In this document: positions 7,546 to 37,346 of the stretch, one piece after another | Layout of the letters: each line of letters starts with the position of its first letter | Position numbering within the stretch: the first letter of the stretch is position 1 | Origin: Pagrus major | Lineage: Eukaryota; Chordata; Actinopteri; Spariformes; Sparidae | Direction: 5' to 3' | Length of the DNA stretch: 64,000 nt | Assembly (NCBI RefSeq): GCF_040436345.1 | Contig: NC_133224.1 | Location: forward strand, 13,291,703-13,355,702 | Notes under the pieces: generated by a model | What the model saw: the letters and a program-made list of their open reading frames with translations, nothing else | What the model was told of the DNA's origin: nothing | The model's database searches: none | Position numbers and translations under genes: made by a program

Positions 7546-10500
7546 GATCCCCCCATGTGACTCTGGCAACCAATCGGATTTAACAGCACATTTCCGCCGG
7601 TTAAGCACTTTGTACATGACAATAAAGGGATATTCTGATGAAATGTTTCAGGGCATCTTACTGGATGACTTTATGTAACAGCCTCATCTCTAATCATACT
7701 GATGTCAGTCAGATTGAAGAAATATTGTCCATGTTACCACAATGTATGGGTGAACACAACATAATGAACACCTCTTCAGTGTATTGCTGTTGTCGTGGCT
7801 CATTCTCCAGGCTAGTAATCGAAACACTAGTTTAGTGGCCAAATGCTCTCTTCTTCCAGCTGCACGTGGACATTAAAGATCATTCAGGCTACACATCACA
7901 TTGACATAAAGCCTACATGAAGTGACACCAGAAACATGTGGCTGTTCCTAAATAAAGCGAAAACATCAACATTTTGGGGGAAAAAACCTTCTGTCCAACA
8001 CTGAGGTAAGAAACGTGTCTCTACAGAGCTGGATTAAGGAAGTGATTAGCCTAGCTTAGCATAAAGACTGGAAGCATAGGCAAACAGCTTGCAAAAATAC
8101 AGCTACCAACACCTCTAAAGCTCACAGTTTATTTGTTGAACGTGTCTAAAAAGAAGTGCAAAAACAACTATGTGTGGAGTTAGCCAACGTCTTGTAGCTA
8201 GTTCTTCACTAACAACAGGAGCTCTTCTGTAGCATCTCTGGCTGCAGTGCAGGTTTCCACACATGATCAGTGAGCACAGACTGTGGCTTTGTTATCTGTT
8301 CGAATTTTTTTATAGATGAAAAGCCGAGTCAATAATCATGGTCAGTGATGAATGAGTGTAACTGGCCAGCCTCCAAACATCTAAACCCAAATTGGGAGAG
8401 CAAACCTAATCAGGATATCTGATCTTTCCCCAGAAAACATTTCATTTCTTTCATTCTAGTGAATTTATGGAGGTATTTTGTTGCAGTAATGTGGAGTCAG
8501 GAGGACTGGGTGGAGAAATGGGATTTTCAGAAGAATCTGGAGGGTTGGCAAGTAGCTACATCTACAAACACTGTATGAAAAGTAAATGAAGGAGAAAAAC
8601 ACAGTAATCAAAGACAGTGGATCCTGCAGGACCATTGTGTCCAAAAAAACAGCAAGCTAGATTTCATTAAAGTAGAAAAGCAGCCTGGACTGATCATACT
8701 GATGCTTCTCCTGACACCTTGGCAGCTAAATGAAGCTACTAACCAAAAGTTCTGTCGGATAAATAAGAGTTAGGATCAATACCAGTGTATGAAGCACTGT
8801 TACAGCATAATGTCTGTCTGTCTGTCTGACCCTGTGCCAGGGAAGTTAATGCCAAGTTGTTTCATTAAGTTGTTTCTTAATGATTTGTTACAACACAAAT
8901 CTCATCGGCCTCGCTTTTATCATGTCAGTAGAGCTGTACTGTCCTTACACTCACTAATATGTGTTTTCCACTGTCAAAAGTTCAGACTGTGAGACACTCA
9001 GTGTGTGTCAGCTGGCCGCCCTGTTAAATGACGTGGTCATTACTAAGCTTTAGTCTGGGTCTCTATTTGTATTTTTTATGCTAATCGAGGCTAATCATAT
9101 CCTGACTCAAACAAACATGAGCTCAAGATCAATCATCTCATCTTCCTCTCAGAAAGAAAGCAAATAAGCTCATTTCTCAAAATGATTAAAGGTCCAGTGT
9201 GTAGGATTTAATGGCATCTAACTATGAGGTTGCAGATTGCAACCAACTGAATACCCCTCCTCTCACCCCGGGACTTTAAACTATTATAAGTTGAGATAAA
9301 AACAAACACCAACAGCTTACATTCAATTTGAGACTGGTACATTTAATGATAACCTGGACATCAATAAGAGTACACATCATATTTCTCAGGGACATCAGAG
9401 TAACTGTTACCTCATACTATGTCTATATGCTATCTAACACAGGCTAATGCTCAGCAATATAAGAAAAAAAGGGAAAAAAATACAGAAACAGAAAATAATG
9501 ATGAACTCTGCAGTCACACGGTGTGTTACGTCCCTGACAGCCCTCTTTATTCTGCATCTTATCATGGATTAAACACTGAGAGACATTATTATTGAGGTTA
9601 AGATAGCGCTGCTCTTTATAGTTAAAAGCATTCTGAACACTGTTTAGCCCATGCCTTGCCCGTAGCCCCATGTCTGCAGATACTGTAATGCAAGTGAGTA
9701 GCTGCTAATGCACTTAACATGTTATCAACCAGCAAAGTACTCCATTCTGTTGAACACTGGTGGTGAATCATCAGTGTGTAAATCTCCAAACCTAAAGGAC
9801 CTCCTGACTGACGTTCAAAGAGCTGCTCTCATGAGTCATGCAAAGAACAATTATTGGATCATTTACAGCAGAAACAAAACCATAACTTTGAGAAGCACTA
9901 CAATATAAATCTGCAGCATACACACATCAGGGACATATCTTTCAGTTTTAGATAGACTTACCGAGCTGAGGAGGATCCGGTGTGTCTTTTCAGTGCATGC
10001 AAACCTCTGAGAAGTGCTTACAGCTCATATAAAAGGCTCTCTTTCATACCCCGGCAGTAGATCACATGATGGGGACAATCATATTGGCGCTGAACCTTGT
10101 GGTTCCCAAGACCCACTTGCCCCAGATCTGAACAACATTGATAGAGCTGAATTTATCCAAACGGGGACAGCAACAACACCACAGGCTTATACCCAATGAA
10201 GTAATGTCAACTTTAAACAAGATGTGTGCCCAATGACAGAACATGGCATATTATAGGATATAAACTGAATGAGCCGAACAGTATGCCTCTGGTAGAATAC
10301 TGTGTGTCAGTTAGGCTGGGGTAATCTGATTAAACACAAATTAATTTAGGAATATGTACAATATAAATTAAAATATTAAAAGCCTTAAAGGAACAGTTCA
10401 CCCAAACATTTTAATTCAGTCATTACTGTTACCAACTGACACAGTGAATTCGAGGCTTTCGGGGCCCCTGATGGTTGAGGGGGTCTGTGAGTATCTGGCC

Positions 10501-10800
10501 TCGGTACTGTCTGAAATAATTATAAAAGATTCCTGTGAGCTTTACATACACAACAATACTTTCAGTGGTTAATTAGAATAAATGCAGTGTAAACATCATC
10601 ACTTGGTTGAGCAGGTTACTTTTCAGACACAATGATTGTCGCCAAGTTCATTATAAATGATATGAACAGTTCCTTCAAAGCTCCTATTGATCCTTAAAGG
10701 AAAGCTGTCAGTTATTGCAGTGTAAATGTCCTGAGGATCAGTCCTTGCTCCTGCAGCTCTGCAGTGGATCACAGCCGCGCTGCTACGTCGACTGCTGAGT

Positions 10801-13397
10801 TCAAGTTTTAACCGAACACACAAAGCGATGACCTCTGCTTGTCTTGCAGTCCCTGATTTGCCACTTTGCCCTCCTCCACACCAGAACACACTTTTTGTTC
10901 CCCTTCGTTTTGGAGCGAGAGGGTGTCTTCCTCCAGTTAGTGTAGCTGACGGGCTCTCCGCCTGCCCACTCCCAATGTCCTCGGCCCTCTCTGTCGTTCA
11001 GGCCTGAAACAAGAGGAAAGGAATCAGTTGGTCACAGTAAAGAAGTTGTACTCATACACAGTCCCACTACAGTGCGTTACAGTGTTGAATATTATAAATT
11101 CTCATGTTGACAAATAACTAAATTAAATACTTTTACTCATTACTACTTATTCATTGACATGATCCAAAAGCCAACTGTGAGTTAAAGCAGTATAAACATA
11201 ACACAACTAATGAGCATTGACCTGGGTCACTCCCTAATAATTCAATCCAACAAGCATCATAGATACTGTTAATAATGACAAGACAGTCAGCCAACTCATG
11301 TGGGATGGATTGAATGTGGATGTACACGTACATATGCAGAATATGTACAGACTTGATATTTATCATCTAGGCTCTGACTGTGTCACTCCCCACGAGGAGA
11401 CACTGACCTGTGCACAGCAGGGCTCGGGGAGTGACGATGACATCTCAGAGTCTACAGGTGGATGTTGGGGTGCAGGTGGAGTTTTTCAAATGTTACATTA
11501 ACAGCAGCAGTAGCAGCAAGTGATTCATGTCACCTATCATATCACACTGACCTTGTAAAGAGGATCAGGTTTCATAAGTGAGGTGGGCTATTTTTGAAAT
11601 GTTAAGCTTCTGTGCTTCAGTGCTCCACACCGGAGCCCCGCAGGGCTGTGTGCTCAGCCCCTCCTGTTCACACTGTACACTCCCAGACATCAGGAGAACT
11701 CTGAAGTATGCAGACATCTGCAAGTCATTTGCTTGGACAAAGTTACTTTTGGTTGAGCTACATGTTTAACAAGGCTTTATGTAAACAAATCCAGCAGATT
11801 AGTGTGTTCTGCCATCAGCTGGTAGCCACTCATTGTGTGCTGCTGCCTGTTAATAGTGACAGAAGCGTGGGTAGTTGGATTGATGACGTTAGACGGGGGC
11901 TCCACTTCCTGATTAAGGTTCCTTGTGGATTATTCAGATTTCAGAACTAGAGAATAAACTTGATATTCACCACATTTCAAATGATGAAGCTCTGTGCAAC
12001 TAGCACAGTCAATCAAGGGCTGCATTTAATCATTACAGAGCAGTTATAATCATAAAACATGTGAAAAATATATATAATTCTATGTTTTTTATAGGTATTC
12101 AAAATGAATTCTTTAATCATCAGACGAGGAACAATAAATACCAGTCACTCATAAAGGGACAATATGACCATAACAATAATATTAATGAATCAACAGTTAT
12201 TATAATAATGATTATTAGACTGTTGATCCACTTCTGGTGACCATCTTGGTCCTCTGCACGTCCACTGAATGTATGTTCAGTGTCTGTGACAGAGGCCCTC
12301 TCATGGAGTAAAGGCTTGTGTATTTTATATTCAGTTTTGTTCCAGTTGAAGTTGAAGTCTGCCTCTACTGTTGGAACAGCTGAGACTGAGACTGCACAGA
12401 TTCCTCTCGACATCTTTGTCTAAAGTAACATTACACAGATAGTGAAGGTAAAAGCAGAAAACTGTTCACTACTTTGGACAGCTCTCATATAAATGTTTTG
12501 AGAGACGCCACCGCAGTGACGGCCACTTGTATAACTCTGGTACTTTGAGAATAAAAGTTGATGGAGCGTCCCTTTAACATGAGAGACTCTGTTTTCCATA
12601 ACAATTCATTTAAGGAATTTTAAATAATCTCCGAACCAGAATTCTTATTGCTGTCTTGCCTGTAATGAAATGTGACGACTGACCTTTGACCTCAGCTCAT
12701 CTAATGGGATCCACTCCTAAGTATACATGTATTCTGGCATTATTTATTCCTTTTTCTGGATGTTGATGTGTGAGGAGCCTTAACACCATACCGTGGTGCC
12801 GGGGTCGGGATAGGTTGAGCATTTTTCAAATTTTTCTGTTTGCCCCAGTTGTTTAATATTGTTGTTTCACTTTAATGTTTGTTTGTTGTTCCTTTTTCTC
12901 CTCCCCATGACTTTAACAAGTGAGAACACACGTGCATCATCCCATCCACACTGGACATGTTATTTCTGAAAGAAAATAAAAATAATAATAAAAAATGAAG
13001 CTGAACGATGTTGCAACAAATGATCCAGATAAATACTTATCCAAAATGGTTTTCTTCCACTAAAGTCCCACAGCCAGTCCATGTCTACTTTAGAGAGAAC
13101 GCTCGCAAGCGTGCCTTTATATCTGAAATCAAGACGACAAGAGGGAAAGCTGTACTCAAAAGAATCATTCACAGTGCATATTATTCTGATGATATAGTGA
13201 CAGACAACTAATCAGAAGCATGTGTGTACATTAAGTCTGTCTCAGTTTCTCTTCGAACACGCAGCTCCATGTTAACCTCACCTCTCCCTGCAGGCCCTGT
13301 TAGCTGTGCTCCATGTCACCTTGTGCTCCGTGCTGAGGGTGTAACAGTGGCCACGGTGAAAGGTCCAGCCCTGGGGACACGTCTGAGCACTCACCAT
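10801..13397 (-). pseudogene. Orphan copy of the FREM1 C-type lectin exons
   Basis: Three exons on the minus strand match the FREM1 lectin exons in the right arm: 13,397-13,282, 13,122-13,037 and 11,003-10,801 (stop TCA on the plus strand at 10,801). Sizes (116, 86, 203 bp) and phases are preserved, and every frame is open. Exon 1 is base-for-base identical to its counterpart. Exon 2 differs by one Val-to-Ala change and by A instead of G as the last exonic base before GT, which weakens the donor and changes the conserved Gly of WIGL to Ser. Exon 3 differs at about four residues, including GHWEW here versus GRWEW in the right copy. The duplication starts inside the preceding intron, so no signal peptide, Calx-beta or linker exon accompanies it, and an L1 relic lies upstream. 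It is probably non-functional unless spliced to a new promoter. Confidence 0.75.
12120..12413 (-). other. Intronic 97-residue ORF, conserved in both duplication arms
   Basis: This open frame lies in the intron between lectin exons 2 and 3. Its counterpart is at 32,585-32,872 on the plus strand (95 residues). From PTVEADFNFNW to the stop the two predicted peptides look identical. The N-termini differ by two small deletions (2 and 4 bases) that together restore the frame. The C-terminus is Ile/Leu-rich and membrane-like (SLIIIIIITVDSLILLLW), but this comes from an AT-rich (ATT)n-like run. No homology is recognised. Chance is the default explanation. Confidence 0.2.
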
Positions 13398-13962
13398 CTG
13401 GGTTTCAGGAGGAAATGGGGACATATGATGACATTTGTAGGCAAACATGATTGATTACAAATGAGTATTTAGGAAATCTTTAGAGACATCAGTGTTTTGT
13501 CTAAGAAAGACAAAAAGTCACTCCAAAAGTATCATCTACAAATTTTTCACATGGAGCTCCACAGGGCTCTATCCTCCATCCACTACTTTTCAGTTTTTTA
13601 ATCATTCACAAGGACATTATTGACTTGTATCACTCCTGGTGATCTGCGCCCCTTTACTCTGTTGAAAAACTACATTTCCAACATTCATTTATGAATGTTA
13701 TTATCCTAGTCATCGTTTTTTTTATCCGTTTGCTGAAAAAATTAATGTAAAGTATTTAAAAATGTGCTACTTTAGCTCTTATGCAACATGGAATCTGCAA
13801 AGTACCTTTTAACTAAAATCAAATAATACATCTATTGGAGGGAAGAGTAGGATGTATTGGAGTGGAAGTATAAAATAGAAAAAAAAATGAAAGCACAAAA
13901 CCTCAAAATTGAACTTGAGTAATATTCTTGAGTAAATGTACTTACTTACATCACATCACTGA

Positions 13963-14312
13963 TGTCCCTGTGGCAGCACCCCCTGCGGTCATGGACCATG
14001 ATTCCTCTCGGTGTGCGCGGCCCCCAAAGGTAGCTTCTTCCTCATCTCGGTGCCCAGCCATGTCTCCTCAGTGACAGCTAGTGTAGGTGTGTGAGTGTGA
14101 GCATGTGGGTATGTGTGTGTGTGTGTGTGTGTATGCCTGCGTATGTGCCTGAGTGTGTATGTATTTGTGTATTTCTGTGTGTATATTTGTGGGGGTGGGA
14201 GGTTTGGGTTTTCATGGTTATTCTTTGTTGTTCATGGTTTTTCTTTGTTGATTTTATCCTCTGTGAGGCACTTTGTGCTACTTGATGTATGAAAAGTGCC
14301 ATACAAATAAAA
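13963..14312 (+). other. Spacer with GT microsatellite and LINE/SINE 3' tail
   Basis: After the duplication arm there is unremarkable sequence, then a (GT)n run at about 14,112-14,133. From about 14,236 follows a retroposon-type 3' tail: a GAGGCACTTTGTGCTAC motif and TGAAAAGTGCCATACAAATA, which precede terminal microsatellites in many fish LINEs and SINEs. The tail leads directly into the pentamer array at 14,313. No coding sequence is present. Confidence 0.6.
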
Positions 14313-14367
14313 GTTGATTTGATTTGATTTGATTTGATTTGATTTGATTTGATTTGATTTGATTTGA
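14313..14367 (+). repeat. (TTGAT)n pentamer microsatellite at a retroposon tail
   Basis: About eleven perfect copies of TTGAT/GATTT follow a retroposon 3' tail (ATACAAATAAAAG). Variable 3' terminal repeats of this kind mark the end of L2/CR1-type LINEs and the SINEs that borrow their tails. The array abuts the truncated 3' end of the minus-strand L1 element. Read on the minus strand it adds an (IKSNQ)n peptide to the L1 frame, which is artefactual. Confidence 0.85.
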
Positions 14368-17300
14368 ACGTCGTCAGCTAAGAGCCCTATGAGATGCTCC
14401 TGCTTTCCTATATGGATTCCTTTTAAGTTGTTACTTTGTCTGATCATTTGTGCCAGTGGTTCAATAAATATAGCAAACAAGGTAGGGCTAAGACAACATC
14501 CTTGACGAGTTCCTTGCTGTAAGACAAATCTATCAGTTAGGTGTCCATTAATTTTTATCCTCGCTGTAGGTTCTTGGTAGAGGCCTTGAATACATTGTAT
14601 TAACTGTTCTTGAATCCCTAGTTTCCCGCAAACCTGATACAGAAATTTCCAATTGACACAGTCAAAGGCCTTTTCTGCATCAAGGCTCACTAGTACTGCT
14701 CTCAGGCCCTGTCTTTGGATCTGATCTATTATGTGGAGGATACGTCTAATGTTATCCTGAGTCTGCCTGCCTGTAATAAAACCTGACTGATCTTCATCTA
14801 TCAAGTCAGGCATAAAATTTTCGAATCTTTTGGAAATTATTGAAGTAAAGATCTTATAATCCACATTTAGAATTGAAATGGGTCTATAGGATTCACAAAG
14901 TTCTTTATTTTTTCCTTGCTTTGGAATAACTGAAATTATGGCCTCTTTCCATGAGGGGGGCAGTTTGCCCTCTGTTAGAGTCAGATTGAAAGAATTCAGA
15001 AGTAGCGGAGGTAATTCCTCCCTAAATGTTTTATACCACTCGCTGGGGAATCCATCACTACCTGGCGTTTTGTTTGATTTTAATCTGCTAATTGCGGCAT
15101 CTAGTTCCTTTTTTGTGATGTTGGAAATTAGTTTTCTATTTTGCTCTTCTCCAATAGCTGGTAAGTCCAATGAATCAAGGAAATCTTTCATTTCACACTC
15201 TCCTTTTGCTGTGGGTTGGGTGTATATGTTTTCATAGTAATCTTTAAAAACCCTTTCTATTTCTTCAGCTTCGAATAGTAGTTGTTTCGCTAAGGGGTCT
15301 CTAATCATATGTATTGTGTGAGAAGCTTGCTGGACCTGAAGTCTTCTTGCCAAATATTTATATGCTTTAGAGCCTGATTCATAGTAGGTCTGTTTAATGA
15401 ATCTTAGTTTTTTCTCAACCTCTTGACTTAGGATGTCATCTATCTGCTGTCTCACACTGATTATTTGTTGTAAAGATGGTTCATCTTTATTATTTTTATG
15501 TTGCTGTTCCAGTGTTATTAATTGTTTAACCAACTTCTTAAAGTCTTCCTCTCTAGTCTTTTTTTGGTAAGCTGCCCTCGCTATTAACCTCCCTCTCATT
15601 ACAGCTTTAACCGTGTCCCATAGTATGGTAAAATCCACTGGGCTGTCCAAGTTGTCCTCCATGCAGCGTTTAATCTCTTTCTTAACCTCCTCCTGTGTTT
15701 TCCGGTTATTCAGCATACCCACATTTAATCTCCATAGTGTATTTTTATTTCTCCGAATTAGACGAACAATGAGGTAAGTAATACTGTGATCAGACAAATC
15801 AGTTACCCCTATTTTACATTCCTCTACTCTATATCTGTCTATTGTGTTTATAAAAAAATAGTCTAACTAAAATAGTCTACTCTGGAGTACACTGAGTGTG
15901 GAGCAGAATAATGTGTGTAGTCCCTCTCTATTGACCAAAGTAACTAGATTATTATCCAATTTCCCTTTTACTATTACATATCTCCCTTCTTTGTCGTTTA
16001 TTTCTTTAATGACTTCAAAACTGACAGAGTTGGAAATTAATATTGCGACTCCTCTCTTTGGACCTTTCTTAAATGAACTAAAGAAGGCATTTTTAAATCC
16101 AAATGTCCTCAGTTTATCGTGTTCTTGCTGAGGTAGATGCGTTTCTTGTAAATATATCACTTGAATCACTTTTCCTCTTTTAATTGGATTGTTTAAGCCA
16201 TTCACATTTAAGGATGCTATTCTCACGTTATTACGCTGCATTACTTATAAGGATAAAGACAAAAGAAAACATCAGTAGCCCCACTAACATTGCCAAAACG
16301 GTGGCATGGAACAAACAGAGCAAATACAACAGATGAACTTCCAAACAATTGAGGATCTTTCCCTCCGGGATCCCTCCTTGCGCTGCCACTCCATCGCTGT
16401 GCGGAGCCGTGGCTCCAGCCCGTCCGCTGCCGCGGTCGTCAGTGTCGGTGTCCTCTCTGCGAGTTCGTGTTTCTCAAATTCCTCCTTCACCTCCTCGGCG
16501 CTGTTGTAGGTTCGAGTCCCCGTCTCCCAATGGATCCTCATCCTGGTGAATGGCGTCTGAAACCGGACGCCTTTCTCCTTCAAGATTCTTTAGCAGCGTT
16601 ATATTCCTTTCTCTTTTGAACAACCTCTGTCGCGTAGTCATGATCGAATGACACGACTTTGTTTCCCAGTTCTATTTTCTTTCTCCATACCTCTCTCAGG
16701 ACTCTCTTTGGTAGTGAATTCCAGAAAGTTCACCATGATGGGTCTCGGCTGGGCTCCGTCTGCAGGCTTCTGTGCAAGTGACCGATGCGCTCTTTGAATT
16801 TGGAAATTAAAAACGTCCGGCAGGTGGAGTTCACGTCTGAGCAGGTCTTGAACAAACTTGGCCGCAGATTCACCCTCTTCTCCCTCTGTAACTCCGTAGA
16901 TACGGAGATTATTTCTCCTCGATCTGGACTCCAAATCGGTTAACTTATCCTGAAGAGCTTTGTGTTCTCTCAGTGAGATAATAAGCGTTGTTAGCCTCCT
17001 GTGCCCAATGTTCCAGCTTTTCAATCCGCAACTCAGCCGCATTGATCTTGCCGCTCTGTAGCTGCTGTTCAGTGGCAAGTTGTTGGTTTATATCTTGTTT
17101 GAAATCATCCAAGTCTTTTTTCACGTCTCTCCTCAGTGTTTCTTCAAATGAGCGAAGGGCATCTTTTATTTCTGTTTTTAAATCCCGTATCTCCTTGCTG
17201 ATAATTTCTAGATCCGAGCCCATTTCCGGCTCACTTCCAGCGAGGTGTGTTGTCTCATGGCCGCCATCTCCTACCATTTCACGGTTAGCTAGCGGTTCCT

Positions 17301-17530
17301 CCATTTCGTCTGTCGCTGTGTTTTTAGTCCGAGTGAGTCGAGTTTTCCTTCCCATTCCAACTTTTCCCCAGTCACATTACAGTCAGTATGATTTCTAGCT
17401 CTAGTTATTCGAGTTTTCGGGGAGTTTTTACCCTTGACTATCAGGAGCTTTGATGCCACGCAGCCTACCACTCCATGTCCAAACCGGAAGTCTCCGATCT
17501 CGATCATTTTCATGATAAAATTCTCCACGA
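14368..17530 (-). mobile_element. L1-like LINE with ORF1, partial EN and RT; 3' truncated
   Basis: Read on the minus strand, ORF1 comes first (17,355-16,284, broken by frame changes near 16,985 and 16,620). It has a basic start, a long coiled coil, an RRM-like block with NNLRIYGVTEGEEGES, and a C-terminal piece with TYNSAEEVKEEF. ORF2 follows from 16,241: an endonuclease start (RIASLNVNGLNNPIKRGK, LQETHL, KRGVAILI) broken off near 15,930, then a long RT frame (15,797 downward). The RT has TPGSDGFPSEWYK, YRPISILNVDYKIF, DQSGFITGRQTQDNIRR, SLDAEKAFDCVNW and QQGTRQGCCLSP. The copy stops at LLADDV, where the catalytic motif would be YADD. The rest of RT and the C-terminus are missing, which is the opposite of normal 5' truncation. 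A large part of the endonuclease is deleted. Confidence 0.85.
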
Positions 17531-17579
17531 TAACGATGATAAATTCATGACATTTATTTTCGATACAGTTATTTTTGAG

Positions 17580-18200
17580 TCCGTTTTCCTTTACCTAGAA
17601 AACACTACATCAACAGCCAATCGCACAGCAGAGAAACAGATGCACGTGGTTGACGCATGTTTCCAGCCCCTCCCACTCACAACTACTCAGAGTGACGGTG
17701 ACCACCTGTGTGTCCAGCCGAAACCGAGTGCGAGAAAACTGCGAAAGACAAAGAAATTGTACCGAAGAAAGGTCATACCACTTCGGTTATTTGGAAATAG
17801 TTCTGCTACCTGAAGTCTGACAAAGGACAGACCACCATTAGGTGCAAAATGTGTCGGTGACCAGTCCTCAGCAGAACTGGAAACACCACCAACCTCTTCC
17901 ATCATCTCAAAAGGTACCGTCCCAAACAGGACTCCGAAAGTATGAGTTAGCGCTATCATGCTAGCGTCAGCCTCCCCTCAAGTAGCCAACAGCCCAGCCC
18001 CACTGCTTCTACTAGTCAAACTTCAGTTCAACCAACAGTTGCCGCTGCTTTTTACCCTATATGAGAAGAAACCGAAGCGACACAAAGACATAATCAGCGC
18101 AGTTATGTACTGTATCGATAAAGATATGATGCCTATAAGCACGGTTGAGGGTGAGGGAAGCGGCTGCCCAGGCTCCAGCTAAAGCCACAGGAAAGACATA
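17580..18200 (+). pseudogene. hAT (ZBED-type) transposase, N-terminal remnant
   Basis: The plus strand encodes a decayed BED zinc finger: SVIWK then a stop, LKSDKGQTTIRCKMCR, a stop, and PVLSRTGNTTNLFHHLKRYRP, which supplies a CxxC and HxxxxH-like pattern. It continues into the typical ZBED linker and dimerisation start, KRHKDIISAVMYCIDKDMMP followed by STVEGEG. Two in-frame stops and loss of similarity after about 18,170 show that it is dead. The catalytic RNase-H-like and C-terminal dimerisation regions are absent. A separate fragment of a similar transposase lies at 54.5-55.7 kb. Confidence 0.75.
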
Positions 18201-19735
18201 ATGATGAAAAACAGGAAAATGCAACAAGGCTCAAGGTTAGATTAGGCAACTGGGTTCAGTTTAAATAAGGCGAGCAGTGAAGTGAAGTGTATTATAACTA
18301 ATTTAAACAGCCTTTAAATCAGTGTACACTCCAAAAAAAGTGACATTTAAGTATTTTAATTACATGTAAAACTTTCATTTAATTCAATATAGTTCCATGT
18401 TACATTTAATGCAAAGTTTTTCTATCATGTTGAGTTCAAAGTGTCTAAATTAAATAACTAGGTGTGGGATGGATCATAGTATGGAGGACTGAAACTGCCC
18501 AAATCATAAATATATAAATAAATATATGGCTCAATAAATATATGAATATGCCATTAAACACGACAAAAATAAAACTGAAAATAAATTTAGGCAATTAAAA
18601 CTGGGGTCGGTAAATTGGAAAAACCATCAAGCCAAGGCTAGTTTTTGAAAATATCCAGCCGGTAAACCCTGCCCCCTGTACTCAGGCCTCTCTCCAAAGC
18701 TGCTCCCCCCGAAATATGAACGCTCACTGTCCGACGACTGCCGAATACCGCCGACGGAGTCCGAATCCTCACAAGTGGCATGGAGGAGAGTGTATCGGTG
18801 CATCGTTTTCATCACAACATTGTGCACCCATTTAACAATATATGCCAAATCAATCAACGTCTCTGTATTTTTATATCAAAATCCAGTCATGTCTTTTTCG
18901 TGTAAAAGAAAATCCTTACAAAAGGCTGAACCAAACAATTTCAACCAATAATATCATGACATCCATCCATCAATCAATCTTCAACTTTAAGCAGTGAGCG
19001 AACAGCACAGAGCTCAGATTTCATGTCAGAAAAACACGACTAGAGCAAAGTGTTTCACTGATTAATTTACTAAAGACAAATGTACAACTTAACTCCCTGA
19101 TTTGGGTAAAACTGATCATATAGAAATGTATATGATCGTAATCATAATTAATATTTTCCTCATTAAGGATGTAGTATTGCAGCCACTTCTCGTTGTGGCC
19201 ACACTTTGGATATTACTTATTTTGTTTCTGGCGTTGTGATTTCTGACATCTGAAACATCTTTATGCATATGGAACAAATGCACTTTTTACTGTGTATTTT
19301 GAATCTATTTTGTTGTTATTATTGTGGCAGCACGGCGCTGCCCAGTGCTGAAGTTGTTCACTTCAGCACCTGAAAGACGTTTTATTCTGTTGTATATTCT
19401 TTTGCCAAATGAAATGACAAACTAAATTTATATTGAATGTGCTGCGTGCCACATTGGCTTTCATTGAAAAAACAAATACTTCCTAATAAAGTAACTCTGA
19501 AGTCATGAAAATCAACTATTTTTGTCATCCCCGCATGTTTTGGTCCAGCCAATTTGTTTGTTTTATATTAATTTAAGTTATTGGATTTTTTTTCATTTTC
19601 AGTTGCATTACATTTTAGGTATTCCATCTAAAAATAAAAAGAAGTTTAAAAAAAAAAAAAAAAAGTTTTGAAAGTTTGAAAAACAAAACATCAAAGGCAG
19701 CGGAATGTGATGATGCAAACAACAAAAAAAATCCA
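18201..19735. other. AT-rich intergenic sequence, no gene seen
   Basis: I see no convincing coding sequence. The stretch contains an (AAATA)n-rich patch at about 18,505-18,560 similar in flavour to one at 27,975-28,180, and a poly(A) run at about 19,648-19,663. No inverted terminal repeats or splice-bounded exons were recognised. Confidence 0.6.
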
Positions 19736-19737
19736 AA

Positions 19738-26189: not shown

Positions 26190-26243
26190 AACAAGAAATT
26201 GAAGAAAACAAGGGTGGTCTAATAATTTTTTCCATGACTGTAG
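26190..26243. mobile_element. Terminal-repeat relic resembling a Tc1/mariner end
   Basis: The sequence GGTGGTCTAATAATTTTTTC followed by CATGACTGTA is the usual look of a Tc1/mariner terminal repeat in fish genomes. A weakly similar stretch in the opposite direction lies at about 23,445-23,475 (CCACGACTATGGAAGCAAAT). If the two are paired, the BEL/Pao fragment would be nested in a decayed Tc1-like element, but the pairing is doubtful. Between 25,976 and 26,190 I see nothing else. Confidence 0.35.
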
Positions 26244-26344
26244 AAACAAAAGCAATGGCCTCAACAGATACTGCCACCTACTGGCACAAATGTGTACAAC
26301 ACTCATGAACAAAGAAAATGACCAATCTGGCTCCTACACTCACT

Positions 26345-26720
26345 TTTAAAAATCCCACTCTTGCAGCTTTGGCGGTGTTATGTGCCACATGACAAGGACA
26401 ACCATGAATATAGGTGTTGGGATGCTGCTGGATGACCCTAGAGGCAATGGAATTATGTGGTCCAATGTTCACAGCTGCATTGTCGACTGAGAGACCAATG
26501 CAGTTTTCCCAAGGGATGCTATGCTCCTCTAAGGTAGAGTTAATTTTGGTGGAGATCTCACTTGCTGTCCCACATCTCGTCCCACTTGTTGTACACATAC
26601 TTAAAAACTGGTGGACAACTTTGCTGCCCATGAAGACCCAGACAGTAAGTGGGTTCATCTTTTCCACTCCTATAATGACACTTAACTTCACAAACTTCAT
26701 TTTGACTCTGACATTACAAC
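26345..26720 (-). pseudogene. hAT-type transposase fragment (DUF4371-like core)
   Basis: The minus strand encodes part of a domesticated or hAT-like transposase core: [59 protein letters not shown] (containing the SVDN motif around a catalytic Asp) and [14 protein letters not shown]. These blocks match the RNase-H-like region of zinc-finger/hAT proteins found in many fish. The frame is open over 26,278-26,829, but flanking residues lose similarity at both ends and no start, zinc finger or C-terminal dimerisation domain is present. It is a truncated relic. Confidence 0.65.
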
Positions 26721-27285
26721 ATAAAGGAACAGTGGTGAGGCAGTGGAATAAATACAGGGACAACAGGTCCAATGGGCGCCACCAAGTCCCACTGTGAGAC
26801 TTCCTTACATGGCTGGACTGTGTCAACATCTAGTGAGATGTCTTCAGTTCACAAGGAGTCACCACAAACCGTCCAAAACCTCCTGTGCTGGTACACCCGG
26901 GAGACAGGAGACTAAACGAACAGCAGAATCAGACATCAGCTGTCTGTGAATAGCAGACTAAAGCCACTCCCAGCATCCACTGGGGAGAGGTCAAAGGTCA
27001 TTGATCAGGAGTCAGTAAACATCCAAAGAAAGATCAAGGAGGACATTGATCCAGGCAGGGTTACCACCTCCATATACAACCACATGCTTTCATATAGTCA
27101 CACTTCCACAGTCAGGTCATGTGAGAAGAACCAAACGTCATCTGCTGATGAAGGCCACACCATGTGGCTAAAAGCTTTTGTCCCGTCTGACCAGTGACTG
27201 AACTTTATGTCGTACAATGCTAAATCACAGAAGTATGCCTCCGAGACAAGGCAGAGTGTAAAAATGTTTGTGTGTGTGTGTGCAG
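26721..27285. other. Gene-free stretch before the first FREM1 exon seen
   Basis: No convincing coding sequence was recognised. An open frame at 26,946-27,197 has no familiar motif. The sequence around 27,135-27,185 (a TCTGCTGATGAAGGCCACAC block) has the look of a dispersed repeat. The 3' end is a (TG)n-type tract leading into the splice acceptor at 27,281-27,285. The FREM1 exon that should encode the first half of the Calx-beta domain was not found here. Confidence 0.5.
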
Positions 27286-30200
27286 GAGTGTCAAAGAGGA
27301 GCTGGCACGCTGAGATCATTCAGGATCACCTGGAGGAGGCTGAGGAGATGTTTGAAGTGCTGCTGGTCTCCCCTGAGGGCACAGTGATCAGCAGCATCCA
27401 CACGGCTCAGGTCACCATCAGGGAGTCGGGAGGAAGAGGTAAAAACAAACTTCTCTCTTTTTGAGAGAAGTTTGTTTTCTCTATTTTTGCATTGAAACTT
27501 ACCAAAGAAAAACATTCTAATTACTGTACAGTATGTGATGTACAATCCTACCATAGCATAGAAATTTAAAAACAGTCATGTTTTTTATCACAAGATGGCA
27601 CCAGTTATTCGGATTAAAAACCCAGTGAGTTGATATTTGCCAAAAGAAATGACTGTTAAAACACATCCACCACAGGAGGGTGCCAGCTGACCCACGATCG
27701 GGAGCCTCCTGTTCTTGGAGGAAAAGAGATCCGGTCAGACACGTACCCCCAGCACGGATCCATCCAACTAGAGAAACTGCCCCTCGGCACAGATTCAGTC
27801 ATCTGGACCCGTGGAGACAGCGTCTCCAGACCTGTCCCAAAGAAGAAACTCAAAGTGAGGGGTAACCCAAAGTCTGTGAGTACCTGTTCTTGAAGATCAG
27901 CACTGGATTGGACTCTATCCACGCTCACATGTTCCTCTTCGTCACAGCTTTGTTTCTGATGCATGGGCCAAAACAAAATATATAAATACAGACATAATTA
28001 TACAAATAAATGCTGAAATAAATGACTGAATAAATAATTTCATAATTTAATGCTTGATAATATATTCTTATAAAATAAAATGCCTAAATGAATATTTAAT
28101 AAATACATTTATTTTAATATATAATTTTCCTTTATTCACACATTTATTTTCATCGATTTATTGATTTTATTTATTGATTGATATATACTTTAGTTTACAC
28201 ATAGCTTGACTTGTTGCTCACCTGACGCCACCAGATGACTGGACTCCCACACAACCATTTGGGAAGTCATTGGACACTGTTTGGTAAAGGGCAGTCCTTC
28301 CAAAAATACTTGGTGTGTGATTGGCCGACACATCTGACCAAGGTACGTTTTATCAGTCTGTTTTCTGGGAATAATTGACACAAGCAGAAACCATAAACAA
28401 GCCGTTTTTTCGTTTTTTTGTTTTTGGGCAAAAAACGAAAATCAAAAGTTCATCTCGTTTTCTCGTTTTTTTGGTTCTTACTTACAAAACGAATGTACCA
28501 CTCAATATTTTGTTTCCGTCGGTGGGCGGGTCCTCTGATTGGCTAGTGTGCTTCCTTGCCCCGTGCTCTTCAAAATAAAAGTTCTTCCGTTTGATAATGT
28601 TGACAAAAATATTACTGTATTATAGACACTAGCAGACACAGAGGTCCCCAACACCCACAGTCAAGACTGACCCGGCTTCAAATAAAATAATAGTATTCAT
28701 AATCATTTGAAAATGAGAACTTATGAAGTTATGATGACTTCAGTGCAGTTGATGTTTAGCCACAAGGTGGCGCAGTTGTTACATGAAGAGTAGACCTCAG
28801 GGCTTTACTACGAAGGAGGCTCAACATCTCCAGGCTCTGTGTTCATAATCCGGCTCAACAAAACCTAAAGCCTCTGTTAACCTTTATCCATTTACAGTAA
28901 ACAAATCTTTTTTTCTTGTTGAAAAATATTTTATATTGTTTTCATATTATTATTTACTGACGGTGATTACAGAATGCGAGTGTGTTATATTGAAAGCGAG
29001 GCTGGGTGTGCCTATGAATATAGGCTACAGTGAGTTTTTTAAGGTGCTGTACAAGCAAATCATATTGTCTACTCTGTACAATGACAAAGAGTGTATAAAC
29101 AAATGATTTTGCTCTTTGCTCATGGCAGTTGTGACAGTCATTTTTGTTTACATGTCAGCAGGCAAGCTTCACTCATTCCAGGGATGTATTATGCTTTGTA
29201 CTATAGCCTACTTAATTGTATCACTTGGAACATGGTATGAAATGGATCTATAGTATAGAAATTTGCTCATAACAGGCCGGCTGGAATACAAAGCAAACTT
29301 ACCTCTCTCAAATGCACATTCATGGAAGTCTTGTATTGTCATCCCAGGACAAAACACAAACAATGCAGTAATGTAATAATATACATCTTTAAATGCACAA
29401 TAATGAGTCATTCAGAGAGTTATTAAATGTTTTTATTATTTAATTACACAGAAATCACATGGCAGGTGCTATTTTCTCATCCATAGGCTACTCTAAGTAC
29501 AGCAATGTGAGGGTTTCATACATGTTGGTTGGATCACTCTTCAGGAGGTGTCCTTACTCTACCAGTAGAGAATGCTTTCCTGAAATTAGTGAGTAAGTAG
29601 AGCATACTTTCCCTGGAAGTACAGACTAAAAAAGGGTTAGGGGAAAATCCTAGAGGAAACACTGCATATATTTTGGAGAGGGGGGTCGAGTATGTGTCGT
29701 GTAAGTGTAAACACTGAGTTACTTTTATCTGAGGAGCACACGTCATAATTGTGAAGGGTTTTTCAGTTGAGCTTCACTGACTGCACAGTGTGCAAATTTG
29801 TTTCATTTTTATTTTATTTGGCAGGGACACCGTATTTTTTGTACCAGATAATGGCTAGAGAAGCTTAGTTATTTTCATACGTAGTCCCTGGGTGTGCCAC
29901 TCACAATGACACACCACCTGTACAGTGAGAAACAATTGTTGCCTGATGTGCTATTAAAAAAGTTGATTAAGAGTTGGGCCTACGAGCATGATTTGTGACA
30001 CACAGTTTAGAAGCCAGTCCTGGTCCAAGATTTAATGTTCAGAAGTGTGATGTGTAAACCTGAAGTGTACAATACAAATTCCTACGATTGACTATAGTGA
30101 AGTACATTAGGATACGCGCACAGAGCACAAAGCTCAGAGCCGGACAATGACCACCGTCGTGATACAGTTGACGCTGACCGGGGCTTTAGGTTTTGTTGAG

Positions 30201-33200
30201 CCGGATTATGAACACAGAGCCTGGAGATGTTGAGCCTCCTTCGTAGTAAAGCCCTGAGGTCTACTCTTCATGTAACAACTGCGCCACCTTGTGGCTAAAC
30301 ATCAACTGCACTGAAGTCATCATATCTTCATAAGTTCTCATTTTCAAATGATTATGAATACTATTATTTTTATTTGAAGCCGGGTCAGTCTTGACTGTGG
30401 GTGTTGGGGACCTCTGTGTCTGCTAGTGTCTATAATACAGTAATATTTTTGCTATATATATTTTTGCTATATATTTCCATGTGGTGAGCAGGGGAGCACA
30501 GCAGCAGGCATCAGCAGGACTCACTGGGTCCAAGTCGGATCATCAAAGACAGATCTCAAAACCTCGGAAAAGTTCACAGTCTAAAGGACATGTGAGTGTG
30601 TTATTGGTCCTATAGAGTCAGTACAGAGTAATTCTCTTTTGCCATGATCTTCAGTTCTGTGATCAGCCACGAACGCTTCAGCCATGAAAGTTCCAAACTT
30701 TCTGTTCTTTATTAGTTATTGATTTATGGGTCATTATTGTGGATAAAAATAATACATTCCAGTTAAAGCAACAGCAAATGAATTCTCCGTTGGCCACAGC
30801 TGACAACACCATGCCCAAGCCCTGTGTGCCAGAACTGATCGGCCTCCTGCATTTCAACCAGACCACCAATCAGCTCTTTCACTGCAACGGTGTGTCCTGG
30901 AAACCCTGGGCACCAACTGATCAGGTACTCCACTTGCTACTAGCATGCACTAGTTTCTTTGCATCTCTGTGGAATAGAAAATGTCTGACCTCGGCAATAC
31001 CGTCATCTTCAAATGATTCAGTGATGTGATGTAAATAAGTACATTTACTCAAGAATATTACTCAAGTTCAATTTTGAGGTTTTGTGCTTCTATTTTTTTG
31101 CTATTTTATACTTCCAATCCAATACATCCTACTCTTCCCTCCAATAGATGTATTATTTGATTTTAGTTAAAAGGTACTTTGCAGATTCCATGTTGCATAA
31201 GAGCTAAAGTAGCACATTTTTAAATACTTTACATTTATTTTTTCAGCAAACGGATTAAAAAAAACACTGACTAGGATAATAACATTCATAAATCAATGTT
31301 GGAAATGTAGTTTTTCAACAGAGTAAAGGGGCACAGATCACCAGGAGTGATACAAGTCAATACTGTCCTTGTGAATGATTAAAAAACTGAAAAGTAGTGG
31401 ATGGAGGATAGAGCCCTGTGGAGCTCCATGTGAAAAATTTGTAGATGATACTTTTGGAGTGACTACTTGTCTTTCTTAGACAAAACACTGATGTCTCTAA
31501 AGATTTCCTAAATACTCATTTGTAATCAATCATGTTTGCCTACAAATGTCACCATATGTCCCCATTTCCTCCTGAAACCCAGATGGTGAGTGCTCAGACG
31601 TGTCCCCAGGGCTGGACCTTTCACCGTGGCCACTGTTACACCCTCAGCACGGAGCACAAGGTGACATGGAGCACAGCTAACAGGGCCTGCAGGGAGAGGT
31701 GAGGTTAACATGGAGCTGCGTGTTCGAAGAGAAACTGAGAAACTGAGACAGACTTAATGGACACACATGCTTCTGATTAGTTGTCTGTCATGTATAAGAA
31801 CTATATCATCAGAATGATATGCACTGTGAATGATTCTTTTGAGTACAGCTTTCCCTCTTGTCGTCTTGATTTCAGATATAAAGGCACGCTTGTGAGCGTT
31901 CTCTCTAAAGTAGACATGGACTGGCTGTGGGACTTTAGTGGAAGAAAACCATTTTGGATAGGTATTTATCTGGATCATTTGTTGCAACATCTTTCAGCTT
32001 CATTTTTTATTATTATTTTTATTTTCTTTCAGAAATAACACGTCCAGTGTGGATGGGATGATGCATGTGTGTTCTCACTTTTTAAAGTCAAGGGGAGGAG
32101 AAAAAGGAACAACAAACAAACATTAAAGTGAAACAACAATGTTAAACAACTGGGGCAAACAGAAAAATTTGAAAAATGCTCAACCTATCCCGACCCCGGC
32201 ACCACTGTATGGTGTTAAGGCTCCTCACACATCAACATCAAGAAAAAGGAATAAATAATGCCAGAACACATGTATACTTAGGAGTGGATCCCATTAGATG
32301 AGCTGAGGTCAAAGGTCAGTCGTCACATTTCATTACAGGCAAGACAGTAATAAGAATTCTGGTTCGGAGATTATTTAAAATTCCTTTAATGAATTGTTAT
32401 GGAAAACAGAGTCCCTCATGTTAAAGGGACGCTCCATCAACTTTTATTCTCAAAGTACCAGAGTTATACAAGTGGCCGTCACTGCGGTGGCGTCTCTCAA
32501 AACATTTGTATGAGAGCTGTCCAAAGTAGTGAACAGTTTTCTGCTTTTACCTTCACTATCTGTGTAATGTTACTTTAGACAAAGATGTCGGGAGGAAATG
32601 TGCAGCTCTCAGCTGCTCCAACAGTAGAGGCAGACTTCAACTTCAACTGGAACAAAACTGAATATAAAATACACAAGCCTTTACTCCATGAGAGGGCCTC
32701 TGTCACAGACACTGAACATACATTCAGTGGACGTGCAGAGGACCAAGATGGTCACCAGAAGTGGATCAACAGTCTAATAATCATTATTATAATTACTGTT
32801 GATTCATTAATATTATTGTTATGGTCATATTGTCCCTTTATGAGTGACTGGTATTTATTGTTCCTCGTCTGATGATTAAAGAATACATTTTGAATACCTA
32901 TAAAAAACATAGAATTATATATATTTTTCACATGTTTTATGATTATAACTGCTCTGTAATGATTAAATGAAGCCCTTGATTGACTGTGCTAGTTACACAG
33001 AGCTTCATCATTTGAAATGTGGTGAATATCAAGTTTATTCTCTGGTTCTGAAATCTGAATAATCCACAAGGAACCTTAATCAGGAAGTGGAGCCCCCGTC
33101 TAGTGTCATCAATCCAACTACCCACGCTTCTGTCACTATTAACAGGCAGCAGCACACAATGAGTGGCTACCAGCTGATGGCAGAACACACTAATCTGCTG

Positions 33201-34191
33201 GATTTGTTTACATAAAGCCTTGTTAAACATGTAGCTCAACCAAAAGTAACTTTGTCCAAGCAAATGACTTGCAGGTGTCTGCATACTTCAGAGTTCTCCT
33301 GATGTCTGGGAGTGTACAGTGTGAACAGTAGGGGCTGAGCACACAGCCCTGCGGGGCTCCGGTGTGGAGCACTGAAGCACAGAAGCTTAACATTTCAAAA
33401 ATAGCCCACCTCACTTATGAAACCTGATCCTCTTTATAAGGTCAGTGTGATATGATAGGTGACATGAATCACTTGCTGCTACTGCTGCTGTTAATGTAAC
33501 ATTTGAAAAACTCTACCTGCACCCCAACATCCACCTGTAGACTCTGAGATGTCATCGTCACTCCCCGATCCCTGCTGTGCACAGGTCAGTGTCTCCTCAT
33601 GGGGAGTGACACAGTCAGAGCCTAGACGATAAATATCAAGTCTGTACATATTCTGCATATGTACATGTACATCCACATTCAATCCATCCCACATGAGTTG
33701 GCTGACTGTCTTGTCATTATTAACAGTATCTATGATGCTTGTTGGATAGAATTATTAGGGAGTGACCCACGTCAATGCTCATTAGTTGTGTTATGTTTAT
33801 ACTGCTTTAACTCACAGTTGGCTTTTGGATCATGTCAATGAATAAGTAGTAATGAGTAAAAGTATTTAATTTAGTTATTTGTCAACATGAGAATTTATAA
33901 TATTCAACACTGTAACGCACTGTAGTGGGACTGTGTATGAGTACAACTTCTTTACTGTGACCAACTGATTCCTTTCCTCTTGTTTCAGGCCTGAACGACA
34001 GAGAGGGCCGAGGACGTTGGGAGTGGGCAGGTGGAGAGCCCGTCAGCTACACTAACTGGAGGAAGACACCCCCTCGCTCCAAAATGAAGGGGAACAAAAA
34101 GTGTGTTCTGGTGTGGAGGAGGGCAAAGTGGCAAATCAGGGACTGCAAGATGAGCAGAGGTCATCGCTTTGTGTGTTCGGTTAAAACTTGA
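27286..34191 (+). CDS. frem1: FREM1, 3' seven exons (Calx-beta end, linker, C-type lectin domain)
   Basis: FREM1 is a secreted basement-membrane protein that acts with FRAS1 and FREM2 in epithelial-mesenchymal adhesion. Exons: 27,286-27,438; 27,676-27,875; 30,502-30,591; 30,763-30,924; 31,583-31,698; 31,876-31,961; 33,989-34,191 (TGA). Donor/acceptor phases agree throughout, giving 335 complete codons before the stop. Exon 1 has the Calx-beta end (EEAEEMFEVLLVSPEG). The second has a conserved linker (SIQLEKLPLGTDSVIWTRGD), the fourth LIGLLHFNQTTNQLFHCNGV. The last three form a C-type lectin domain: CPQGWTFHRGHCY, FWIGLND, GRWEWAGGEPVSYTNW, CVLVWRRAKWQIRDC, FVCSVKT. EPN and WND calcium/sugar motifs are replaced (EPV, IRD), so classical sugar binding is unlikely (inference). 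Starts of the third and fourth exons are less certain. Upstream CSPG-repeat exons are not in the window. A TIR element sits in the second intron; a 6.3-kb inverted duplication has copied the lectin exons. Confidence 0.85.
28604..30451. mobile_element. Element with 270-bp terminal inverted repeats in a FREM1 intron
   Basis: The left arm (28,604-28,872) and right arm (30,182-30,451) are near-perfect reverse complements. The outer end is CAAAAATATTACTGTATTAT and the inner end AACAAAACCTAAAGCC on the left. The roughly 1.3-kb interior (28,873-30,181) has no recognisable transposase and only short frames. Long inverted repeats around a non-coding centre mark a non-autonomous DNA transposon, or an inverted duplication. 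Immediately outside on the left (28,395-28,590) is a T-rich stretch with CGTTTTTTCG-like motifs that could be another small repeat. The target duplication was not resolved. Confidence 0.75.
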
Positions 34192-37100
34192 ACTCAGCAG
34201 TCGACGTAGCAGCGCGGCTGTGATCCACTGCAGAGCTGCAGGAGCAAGGACTGATCCTCAGGACATTTACACTGCAATAACTGGCAGCTTTCCTTTAAGG
34301 ATCAATAGGAACTTTGAAGGAACTGTTCATATCATTTATAATGAACTTGGCGACAATCATTGTGTCTGAAAAGTAACCTGCTCAACCAAGTGACGATGTT
34401 TACACTGCATTTATTCTAATTAACCACTGAAAGTATAGTTGTGTATGTAAAGCTCACAGGAATCTTTTATAATTATTTCAGACAGGACCGAGGCCAGATA
34501 CTCACAGACCCCCTCAACCACCAGGGGCCCCGAAAGCCTCGAATTCACTGTGTCAGTTGGTAACAGTAATGACTGAATTAAAATGTTTGGGTGAACTGTT
34601 CCTTTAAGGCTTTTAATATTTTAATTTATATTGTACATATTCCTAAATTAATTTGTGTTTAATCAGATTACCCCAGCCTAACTGACACACAGTATTCTAC
34701 CAGAGGCATACTGTTCGGCTCATTCAGTTTATATAATATAATATGCCATGTTCTGTCACTGTGGTGTTGTTGCTGTCCCTGTTTGGATAAATTCAGCTCT
34801 ATCAATGTTGTTCAGATCTGGGGCGAGTGGGTCTTGGGAACCACAAGGTTCAGCGCCAATGTGATTATCCCCATCATGTGATCTACAGCCGGGGTATGAA
34901 AGAGAGCCTTTTATATGAGCTGTAAGCACTTCTCAGAGGTTTGCATGCACTGAAAAGACACACCGGATCCTCCTCAGCTCGGTAAGTCTAACTAAAACTG
35001 AACAGATATGTCCCTGATGTGTGTATGCTGCAGATTTATATTGTAGTGCTTCACAAAGTTATGGTTTTGTTTCTGCTGTAAATGATCCAAAAATTGTTAT
35101 TTGCATGACTCATGAGAGCAGCTCTTGGAACGTCAGTCAGGAGGTCCTTTAGGTTTTGAGATTTACACACTGATGATTCACCACCAGTGTTCAACAGAAT
35201 GGAGTACTTTGCTGGTCGATAACATGTTAAGTGCATTAGCAGCTACTCACTTGCATTACAGTATCTGCAGACATGGGGCTACGGGCAAGGCATGGGCTAA
35301 ACAGTGTTCAGAATGCTTTTAACTATAAAGAGCAGCGCTATCTTAACCTCAATAATAATGTCTCTCAGTGTTTAATCCATGATAAGATGCAGAATAAAGA
35401 GGGCTGTCAGGGACGTAACACACCGTGTGACTGCAGAGTTCATCATTATTTTCTGTTTCTGTATTTTTTTCCATTTTTTTCTTGTATTGCTGAGCATTAG
35501 CCTGTGTTAGATAGCATATAGACACCATAGTATGAGGTAACAGTTACTCTGATGTCCCTGAGAAATATGATGTGTACTCTTATTGATGTCCAGGTTATCA
35601 TTAAATGTACCAGTCTCAAATTGAATGTAAGCTGTTGGTGTTTGTTTTTATCTCAACTGATAATAGTTTAAAGTCCCGGGGTGAGAGGAGGGGTATTCAG
35701 TTGGTTGCAATCTGCAACCTCACAGTTAGATGCCATTAAATCCTACACACTGGACCTTTAATCATTTTGAGAAATGAGCTTATTTGCTTTCTTTCTGAGA
35801 GGAAGATGAGATGATTGATCTTGATCTCATGTCTGTTTGAGTCAGGATATGATTAGCTTCGTTTAGCATAAAAAATACAAATAGAGACCCAGACTAAAGC
35901 TCGCTAATGACCACATCATTTAACAGGGCGGCCAGCTGACACACACTGATTGAGTGTCACACAGTCTGAACTTTTGACAGTGGAAAACACATGTCAGTGT
36001 GTGTAAGGACAGTACAGCTCTACTGACATGATAAAAGCGAGGCCGATGAGATTTGTGTTGTAACAAATCATTAAGAAACAACTTAATGAAACAACTTGGC
36101 ATTAACTTCCCTGGCACAGGGTCAGACAGACAGACAGACATTATGCTGTAACAGTGCTTCATACACTGGTATTGATCCTAACTCTTATTTATCCGACAGA
36201 ACTTTTGGTTAGTAGCTTCATTTAGCTGCCAAGGTGTCAGGAGAAGCATCAGTATGATCAGTCCAGGCTGCTTTTCTACTTTAAAGAAATCTAGTTTGCT
36301 GTTTTTTTGGACACAATGGTCCTTGCAGGATCCGCTGTCTTTGATTACTGTGTTTTTCTCCTTCATTTACTTTTCATACAGTGTTTGTAGATGTAGCTAC
36401 TTGCCAACCCTCCAGATTCTTCTGAAAATCCCATTTCTCCACCCAGTCCTCCTGACTCCACATTACTGCAACAAAATACCTCCATAAATTCACTAGAATG
36501 AAAGAAATGAAATGTTTTCTAGGGAAAGATCAGATATCCTGATTAGGTTTGCTCTCCCAATTTGGGTTTAGATGTTTGGAGGCTGGCCAGTTACACTCAT
36601 TCATCACTGACCATGATTATTGACTCGGCTTTTCATCTATAAATGCCTTCGAACAGATAACAAAGCCACAGTCTGTGCTCACTGATCATGTGTGGAAACC
36701 TGCACTGCAGCCAGAGATGCTACAGAAGAGCTCCTGTGGTTAGTGAAGAACTAGCTACAAGACGTTGGCTAACTCCACACATAGTTGTTTTTGCACTTCT
36801 TTTTAGACACGTTCAACAAATAAACTGTGAGCTTTAGAGGTGTTGGTAGCTGTATTTTGGCAAGCTGTTTGCCTATGCTTCCAGTCTTTATGCTAAGCTA
36901 GGCTAATCCCTTCCTTAATCCAGCTCTGTAGAGACACGTTTCTTCTGTCGTGTTGGACAGAAGGTTTATTCCCCCCAAATTTTGACGTTTTCACTTTATT
37001 TAGGAACAGCCACGTTTCTGGTGTCACTTCATGTAGGCTTTATGTCAATGTGATGTGTAGCCTGAATGATCTTTAATGTCCACGTGCAGCTGGAAGAAGA

Positions 37101-37346
37101 GAGCATTTGGCCACTTAACTAGTGTTTCGATTACTAGCCTGGAGAATGAGCCACGACAACAGCAATACACTGAAGAGGTGTTCATTATGTTGTGTTCACC
37201 CATACATTGTGGTAACATGGACAATATTTCTTCAATCTGACTGACATCAGTATGATTAGAGATGAGGCTGTTACATAAAGTCATCCAGTAAGATGCCCTG
37301 AAACATTTCATCAGAATATCCCTTTATTGTCATGTACAAAGTGCTT
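31018..37346 (+). repeat. Right arm of the 6.3-kb inverted segmental duplication
   Basis: This is the reverse complement of 7,603-13,962. It starts 93 bp after the donor of the FREM1 exon ending at 30,924 and therefore includes the last three FREM1 exons, their introns, and about 3.1 kb downstream of the stop. The downstream part (34,192-37,346) holds dispersed repeats (the element ending AATCCTACACACTGGACCTT at about 35,741-35,760 and the AGTTCACCC-type repeat near 34,590) and no gene I can support. Because the functional FREM1 order continues from upstream exons into this arm, it is probably the original location. Confidence 0.92.
32585..32872 (+). other. Intronic 95-residue ORF, partner of the one at 12,120-12,413
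   Basis: This lies in the FREM1 intron between 31,961 and 33,989. It begins MSGGNVQLSAAPTVEADF and ends in a hydrophobic stretch. Compared with the left-arm copy it has two small deletions near the start that cancel in frame, and no visible amino-acid change after PTVEADF. No family is recognised. Confidence 0.2.

Follow-up and report, generated by a model that had tools for sequence, protein, structure and literature searches.

Triplication of the FREM1 3' end with an inverted middle copy in Pagrus major

A stretch of 64,000 nucleotides from Pagrus major (C10:13291703-13355702), hereafter the window, carries the 3' end of a FREM1 gene twice, in opposite orientations. How did this pair arise, and which copy belongs to the gene? 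An earlier note had described a simple inverted duplication in which the right arm was the original and the left arm its reversed copy. All positions below are window coordinates unless a contig or locus is named, and negative values lie upstream of the window.

The inverted pair and a third copy

Self-BLAST of the window placed the two arms exactly where the earlier note had them: 7603-13962 is the reverse complement of 31018-37346, with about 97.6% identity. The aligned parts are 7603-10184 against 37346-34759 (97.68%, 2591 columns) and 10234-13962 against 34758-31018 (97.57%, 3748 columns). The substitutions and small indels described between the arms were also found, the largest size difference being 49 bp that are absent from the right arm at 34758/34759. 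As had been proposed, the breakpoint at 31018 falls in a FREM1 intron, between the exon pieces at 30793-30924 and from 31598 onward, and the other one lies about 3.1 kb past the stop (the arm ends 3.16 kb beyond the stop codon at 34189-34191). The window thus contains an inverted segmental duplication that involves the FREM1 3' end.

Chance similarity of the arms was rejected because base-shuffling the left arm 20 times never gave a match in the window at E ≤ 1e-10. The left arm was also rejected as a retrocopy, because the alignment runs through the introns between its lectin exons, and as a transposon-like insertion, because the bases immediately outside its two ends differ, as judged by eye.

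The initial 2 kb of the left arm served as the query for a search of the genome (786 Mb, 25 contigs), in which the best 40 candidates were scored. Besides both arms, the search returned two more strong pieces from the contig of the window: 7603-8943 matches C10:13276710-13278044 (98%) and 8945-9603 matches C10:13269536-13270171 (94%). The other 37 of the 41 matches listed were weak and short (at most 184 bits, identity 71-93%). The neighbouring 100 kb were then fetched and joined to the window, and the resulting 164 kb were compared. In the joined sequence the two upstream pieces belong to one copy, C, which lies just upstream of the window at -30766 to -8874 (C10:13260936-13282828) in direct orientation relative to the right arm. 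The left arm (A) matches C over four BLAST pieces with 97.8, 97.8, 95.9 and 95.7% identity. C and the right-arm copy (B) share 26695-28336 and 30476-39114 in seven direct blocks, with insertions or gaps between them. Because this sharing continues beyond the arms, the full copy B is 26695-39114, and the right arm is only its core. The copies in the window are as follows.

7603-13962, minus strand: copy A, inverted copy of the triplicated core, with E6-E8, the lectin exon pieces of FREM1, and about 3.1 kb beyond the stop (BLAST)
26695-39114, plus strand: copy B, direct copy of the duplicated unit, with the FREM1 pieces E1-E8 except E3 and about half of E4, and with two LRR-like exon pieces; matches C
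31018-37346, plus strand: core of B, present in A, B and C; the right arm of the earlier note (alignments)

The order along the contig is C(+), A(-), B(+), so that the inverted core sits between direct units. The core occurs in all three copies and lies strictly inside the unit, and 26695-31018 and 37346-39114 are, in the compared 164 kb, confined to B and C. The copy number profile is 1-2-3-2-1, and the array reaches about 31 kb upstream of the window. The FREM1 tail is triplicated with the middle copy inverted, and this layout is the DUP-TRP/INV-DUP pattern, although the original joins, which in that class form two junctions that are direct or have microhomology, are unreadable here. The order, orientation, nesting and divergence of the copies, and which copy joins which remaining part of a gene, are read directly from the joined sequence.

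A 14-bp inverted repeat is found at the two ends of the unit (26718-26731 and 39106-39119). Inverted repeats of at least 13 bp occur in 0.1% of random 100-bp pairs, and the repeat is rarer than expected by chance. It fits none of the template-switch paths worked through.

The copy that joins FREM1

Open frames of FREM1 lie upstream of C, from -47.5 to -31.1 kb. In these frames Pfam detected Frem_N just over its cut-off (E = 2.6e-06; 27.8 bits against 27). Among the frames of C's FREM1, Cadherin_3 was above cut-off in all five repeat-exon frames tested, and the Calx-beta-like exon tested in C had no Calx-beta match in Pfam, only a meaningless one to Tom5 (E = 0.04). Lectin_C was scored on the last exon of B (32.1 bits), and the last exon of C is identical to it at 64 of 66 residues. 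To our knowledge, the lectin domain is restricted to FREM1 among the FREM proteins. By its domains, Frem_N, CSPG/Cadherin_3 repeats and a C-terminal C-type lectin, the gene at copy C fits FREM1, orthologs of which are described in teleosts (PMC4009816). An apparently intact FREM1, from Frem_N to the C-type lectin exons, thus runs into copy C; self-comparison found no match within the window for the exons upstream of C.

Eight FREM1 exon pieces (E1-E8), a subset of the exons of the gene, were followed inside the unit. C has all eight, B six, and A three, which are the lectin exons. E3 is missing from B, and E4 of B matches C at 30 of 58 residues, because 2.1 kb replace 745 bp of C at this place.

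27288-27434, plus strand: FREM1 E1 in B, protein identical to C
27678-27878, plus strand: FREM1 E2 in B, identical to C
28337-30475, no strand: 2.1-kb stretch in B replacing the 745 bp of C that bear E3 and half of E4; contains a 1.85-kb element with 270-bp inverted ends (28604-28872 / 30182-30451)
30793-30924, plus strand: FREM1 E5 in B, preceded by CCGTTG where C has CCATAG; the AG acceptor is lost
33991-34191, plus strand: last FREM1 exon (C-type lectin) and stop in B (Pfam Lectin_C, E = 2e-07)
starts at 13382, 13121 and 11001, minus strand: lectin exon pieces of A (exon tracing)
38140-40761, plus strand: exon pieces of the LRR-like gene; those at 38140 and 38471 lie inside the unit and also in C, that at 40597 only beyond B

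The view that the right arm is the original because FREM1 exons lead into it does not hold. Exon pieces at 27288, 27678 and 30793 do precede the right arm, but they belong to a larger direct duplicate, which lacks the earlier exons, E3, the first half of E4 and the E5 acceptor; the intact-looking FREM1 enters C, outside the window. A and the FREM1 part of B are likely to be decaying fragments, and annotating the right arm as the end of the FREM1 gene would be wrong.

The downstream edge was followed with three LRR-like exon pieces, all of which are present on the B side, two in C and none in A. The Pfam matches on which the name of this gene rests are both below cut-off (LRR_4, E = 0.071; LRR_9, E = 0.082), and the frame of the third exon has no match; the gene may be LRMDA-like. 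From the exon counts, C is where FREM1 continues into its earlier exons, and B is where the LRR-like gene continues into its later one. The gene joins are as would be expected if tandem duplication had produced C as its left copy and B as its right one. Judged from the exon pieces followed, which are not all the exons of either gene, both host genes appear to have survived the formation of the array.

Some other features lie in this neighbourhood. Just after an exon piece of the LRR-like gene, two long degenerate minisatellite stretches of one family, open in several frames (41195-43303 and 46474-47755), flank a LINE (RVT_1 frame 44196-46238). A 390-residue open frame at 61648-62820 has a HlyIII match (Pfam, 110.2 bits) and is presumably a single-exon PAQR-type receptor gene.

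Divergence and the DNA between the copies

We estimated the distances among the copies from block-wise alignment. In 6267 gap-free columns of the core, A and B differ at 111 sites (1.77%), A and C at 96 (1.53%), and B and C at 89 (1.42%). Unique sites number 59 in A, 52 in B and 37 in C, there are no three-state sites, and equality of the three counts was not rejected over the whole core (p = 0.077). Because the distances are nearly equal, nothing in the sequence suggests that A was copied later from B or C, and since A lies between the direct copies, it is unlikely to be older than they are. Outside the core, the B-C distance is 19/1618 (1.17%) and 19/1512 (1.26%) in two long blocks, and 24/543 (4.4%) and 6/254 columns (2.4%) in two short ones.

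The variable sites of the core are clustered (82 runs against 98 expected, p = 0.003). The strongest cluster spans 1.07 kb, in which 21 of 23 variable sites are unique to B, which leaves just two gap-free differences between A and C; its segment score was reached in none of 20000 shuffles.

34151-35217, no strand, B coordinates: probable conversion tract, A almost the same as C and B different (shuffle test)

This tract covers the end of the last FREM1 coding exon and the sequence that follows. It is probably the result of gene conversion between A and C; the alternative is that B was overwritten from a diverged source, and no such source was seen in this analysis. It had been suggested before that the inverted pair could promote gene conversion. 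The pattern of variation supports conversion, but the partner of the left arm in the tract is C, the copy outside the window, and not the right arm. Thus, A is likely to have exchanged sequence by gene conversion with the 3' end of an apparently working FREM1.

When the tract was removed, the unique sites became 58 in A, 31 in B and 36 in C (p = 0.007), with A as the outlier; when CpG transitions were removed as well, they were 56, 24 and 33 (p = 0.0007). That A is an outlier outside the tract argues against A as a late copy of B or C, and also against a perfect one-event clock. The excess divergence of A would be accounted for in any of three ways: A was copied from the other homologue, it evolved faster, or there were two events.

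The copies are separated by repeat-rich DNA, 16.5 kb between C and A and 12.7 kb between A and B, about 29 kb in all.

1-7602, no strand: part of the C-A spacer in the window (the spacer starts at -8873), with a LINE reverse transcriptase (431-1201), a KDZ transposase remnant (3219-3671) and repeats at 6602-7254 and 7251-7513 (Pfam, genome relatives)
13963-26694, no strand: A-B spacer, with a repeat at A's edge (13964-14340), a reverse transcriptase-bearing LINE, an ORF of 231-bp repeats (19866-21860), BEL/Pao and a hAT-like fragment (26324-26680) (Pfam, genome relatives)

The earlier note had listed L1, hAT, LINE and BEL/Pao relics between the arms. Pfam bears out a reverse transcriptase at 14388-15866 (104.7 bits) and a Pao peptidase at 23747-24811 (157.2 bits), but the L1 RNA-binding domain (16641-17087) is below its cut-off, as is RVT_1 at 24762-25988 beside the peptidase, and neither the hAT piece (26278-26829) nor the second LINE (22130-23141) has a Pfam match. 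The former piece, which we presume to be hAT, is dispersed, with relatives elsewhere in the genome. The ORF at 19866-21860 consists of 5.7 copies of a 231-bp unit; Pfam gives for it only two bacterial families barely over cut-off, with no single stretch passing, and they look implausible.

We compared the junction sequences and saw no clean join at the ends of A, B or C. Past the end of C come 50 bp with two other matches and then a hAT-like element with relatives at 85-93%, whose Pfam hAT dimerisation match is below cut-off. On the outer side of A, the first 89 bp have no match; a 263-bp piece (7251-7513) follows that occurs at two other loci and partly at a third, and the next stretch (6602-7254) is found at full length at one other locus (93%), its middle being a common repeat. 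A repeat family begins at the inner end of A: of the 40 listed matches, 10 begin at base 2 or 3. Before B stands a 357-bp hAT-like fragment (26324-26680), and the adjoining sequence has 97-99% identity in 37 of its 40 listed matches. Because two relatives share sequence past both its ends, this fragment was cut inside the element.

C carries insertions of 6.5, 1.1 and 0.2 kb that are absent from A and B. The 6.5-kb insert, of BEL/Pao type, lies downstream of FREM1 (-21530 to -14993) and has open frames 530 and 1356 codons long; a search of it for terminal direct repeats gave none. The 1.1-kb insertion has the target-site duplication TTTAAA. A 3.0-kb hAT-like insertion in C (-12147 to -9127) has matching ends and an 8-bp target-site duplication (CCTGTTAC), and its 740-residue open frame matches Pfam DUF4371 (612 residues scanned). 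It is absent from B, and A stops short of that site; the element is probably younger than the duplication. The insertions with target-site duplications in C indicate that transposons were still arriving after the duplication. Elsewhere, self-BLAST found an 844-bp direct repeat of 99.9% identity with copies about 5.2 kb apart (L018:2404-3247 and L018:7575-8418), which resembles the ends of a young LTR element.

Origin and meaning of the array

We consider it somewhat probable that one replication-based event produced the duplication, inverted triplication and duplication, and that transposons later filled the junctions. A formerly single-copy unit, made of the FREM1 3' exons and part of the LRR-like gene, would have been duplicated head to tail to give C and B, and a shorter nested piece would have been copied in reverse between them to give A. 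One template-switching event, of MMBIR/FoSTeS or ODIRA type, may have made A and the direct duplication together, and transposons would have filled the 16.5 and 12.7 kb afterwards. The ends of the unit and of the core are placed as DUP-TRP/INV-DUP predicts. Against a single event, neither junction is direct, both being occupied by repeat-rich DNA, A is the outlier outside the tract (p = 0.007), and the short blocks found only in B and C are more diverged (4.4% and 2.4%) than the long ones (about 1.2%). The first two of these points would suit a history of two events, in which tandem duplication gave C and B and A was reverse-copied later or separately into the intervening repeat-rich DNA: direct junctions and one shared age are then not required, and dispersed repeats do flank A (7251-7513; 13964 onward). 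However, a later copy should be closer to B or C, and A is not; outside the tract it is farther from both. We regard this history as possible but rather unlikely.

An artefact of assembly, in which C and B would be the haplotypes of a single locus set one after the other and A would be a misjoin, is improbable. The C-B divergence of 1.4% is within the possible haplotype range of an outbred fish. Yet no N, which would mark a scaffold join, occurs in the 164 kb. The flanks differ from copy to copy, C carries private insertions with target-site duplications, and an inverted allele between two direct alleles would take two misjoins. The simple inverted duplication of the earlier note can appeal to E1, E2 and E5, which stand before the right arm; the rest of the gene is joined to C, and in B every earlier exon is missing, as are E3, about half of E4 and the E5 acceptor, so that this model is refuted provided the assembly upstream of the window is correct, and we give it very little credence.

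Ordinary intrachromosomal segmental duplications are local copies of low divergence with partial genes and gene conversion. The present array resembles them in being local and little diverged, with partial genes and an exchange tract, and differs from them in its nested layout of mixed orientation. DUP-TRP/INV-DUP rearrangements are known at the human PLP1 and MECP2 loci (PMC4352052; PMC10766186), and the class is described in these papers from human patients and yeast. As outlined there, the human rearrangements share with the array the 1-2-3-2-1 profile and an inverted inner segment flanked on either side by a direct copy of a larger unit. Unlike theirs, the junctions of the array are covered by 16.5 and 12.7 kb of repeat-rich DNA, neither a junctional inverted repeat nor microhomology is readable, and its copies have diverged by 1.4-1.8% in a fish genome assembly, whereas those in the patients are new. 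It has been proposed that inverted triplications are stabilised by loss of palindrome arms, which leaves DUP-TRP/INV-DUP, and that palindromic junctions are later rearranged (PMC10766186). The array is like the ODIRA-type inverted triplications outlined in that paper in its end product, and unlike them in that closely spaced short inverted repeats at the junction are not demonstrable. Among the titles and abstract openings covered by our literature search, we saw no DUP-TRP/INV-DUP event in a fish, and we do not claim that none has been reported.

The array adds a case to a class of rearrangement that is already known, and resembles the type best known from human disease. What appears to be a simple inverted repeat becomes a gene-preserving complex rearrangement, in which both edge genes are apparently whole, and sequence seems to have passed between the inverted fragment and the working FREM1. 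If A was templated from the other homologue, its excess divergence would be a fossil of interchromosomal template switching. At typical substitution rates, a divergence of 1.4-1.8% would correspond to the order of a million years or more. Tentatively, a germline DUP-TRP/INV-DUP may have persisted in the fish lineage to this divergence because its breakpoints left both flanking genes whole, and the inverted copy may since have been a conversion partner of the working FREM1 3' end. The array offers a concrete, datable case for how the products of such rearrangements persist in evolution.
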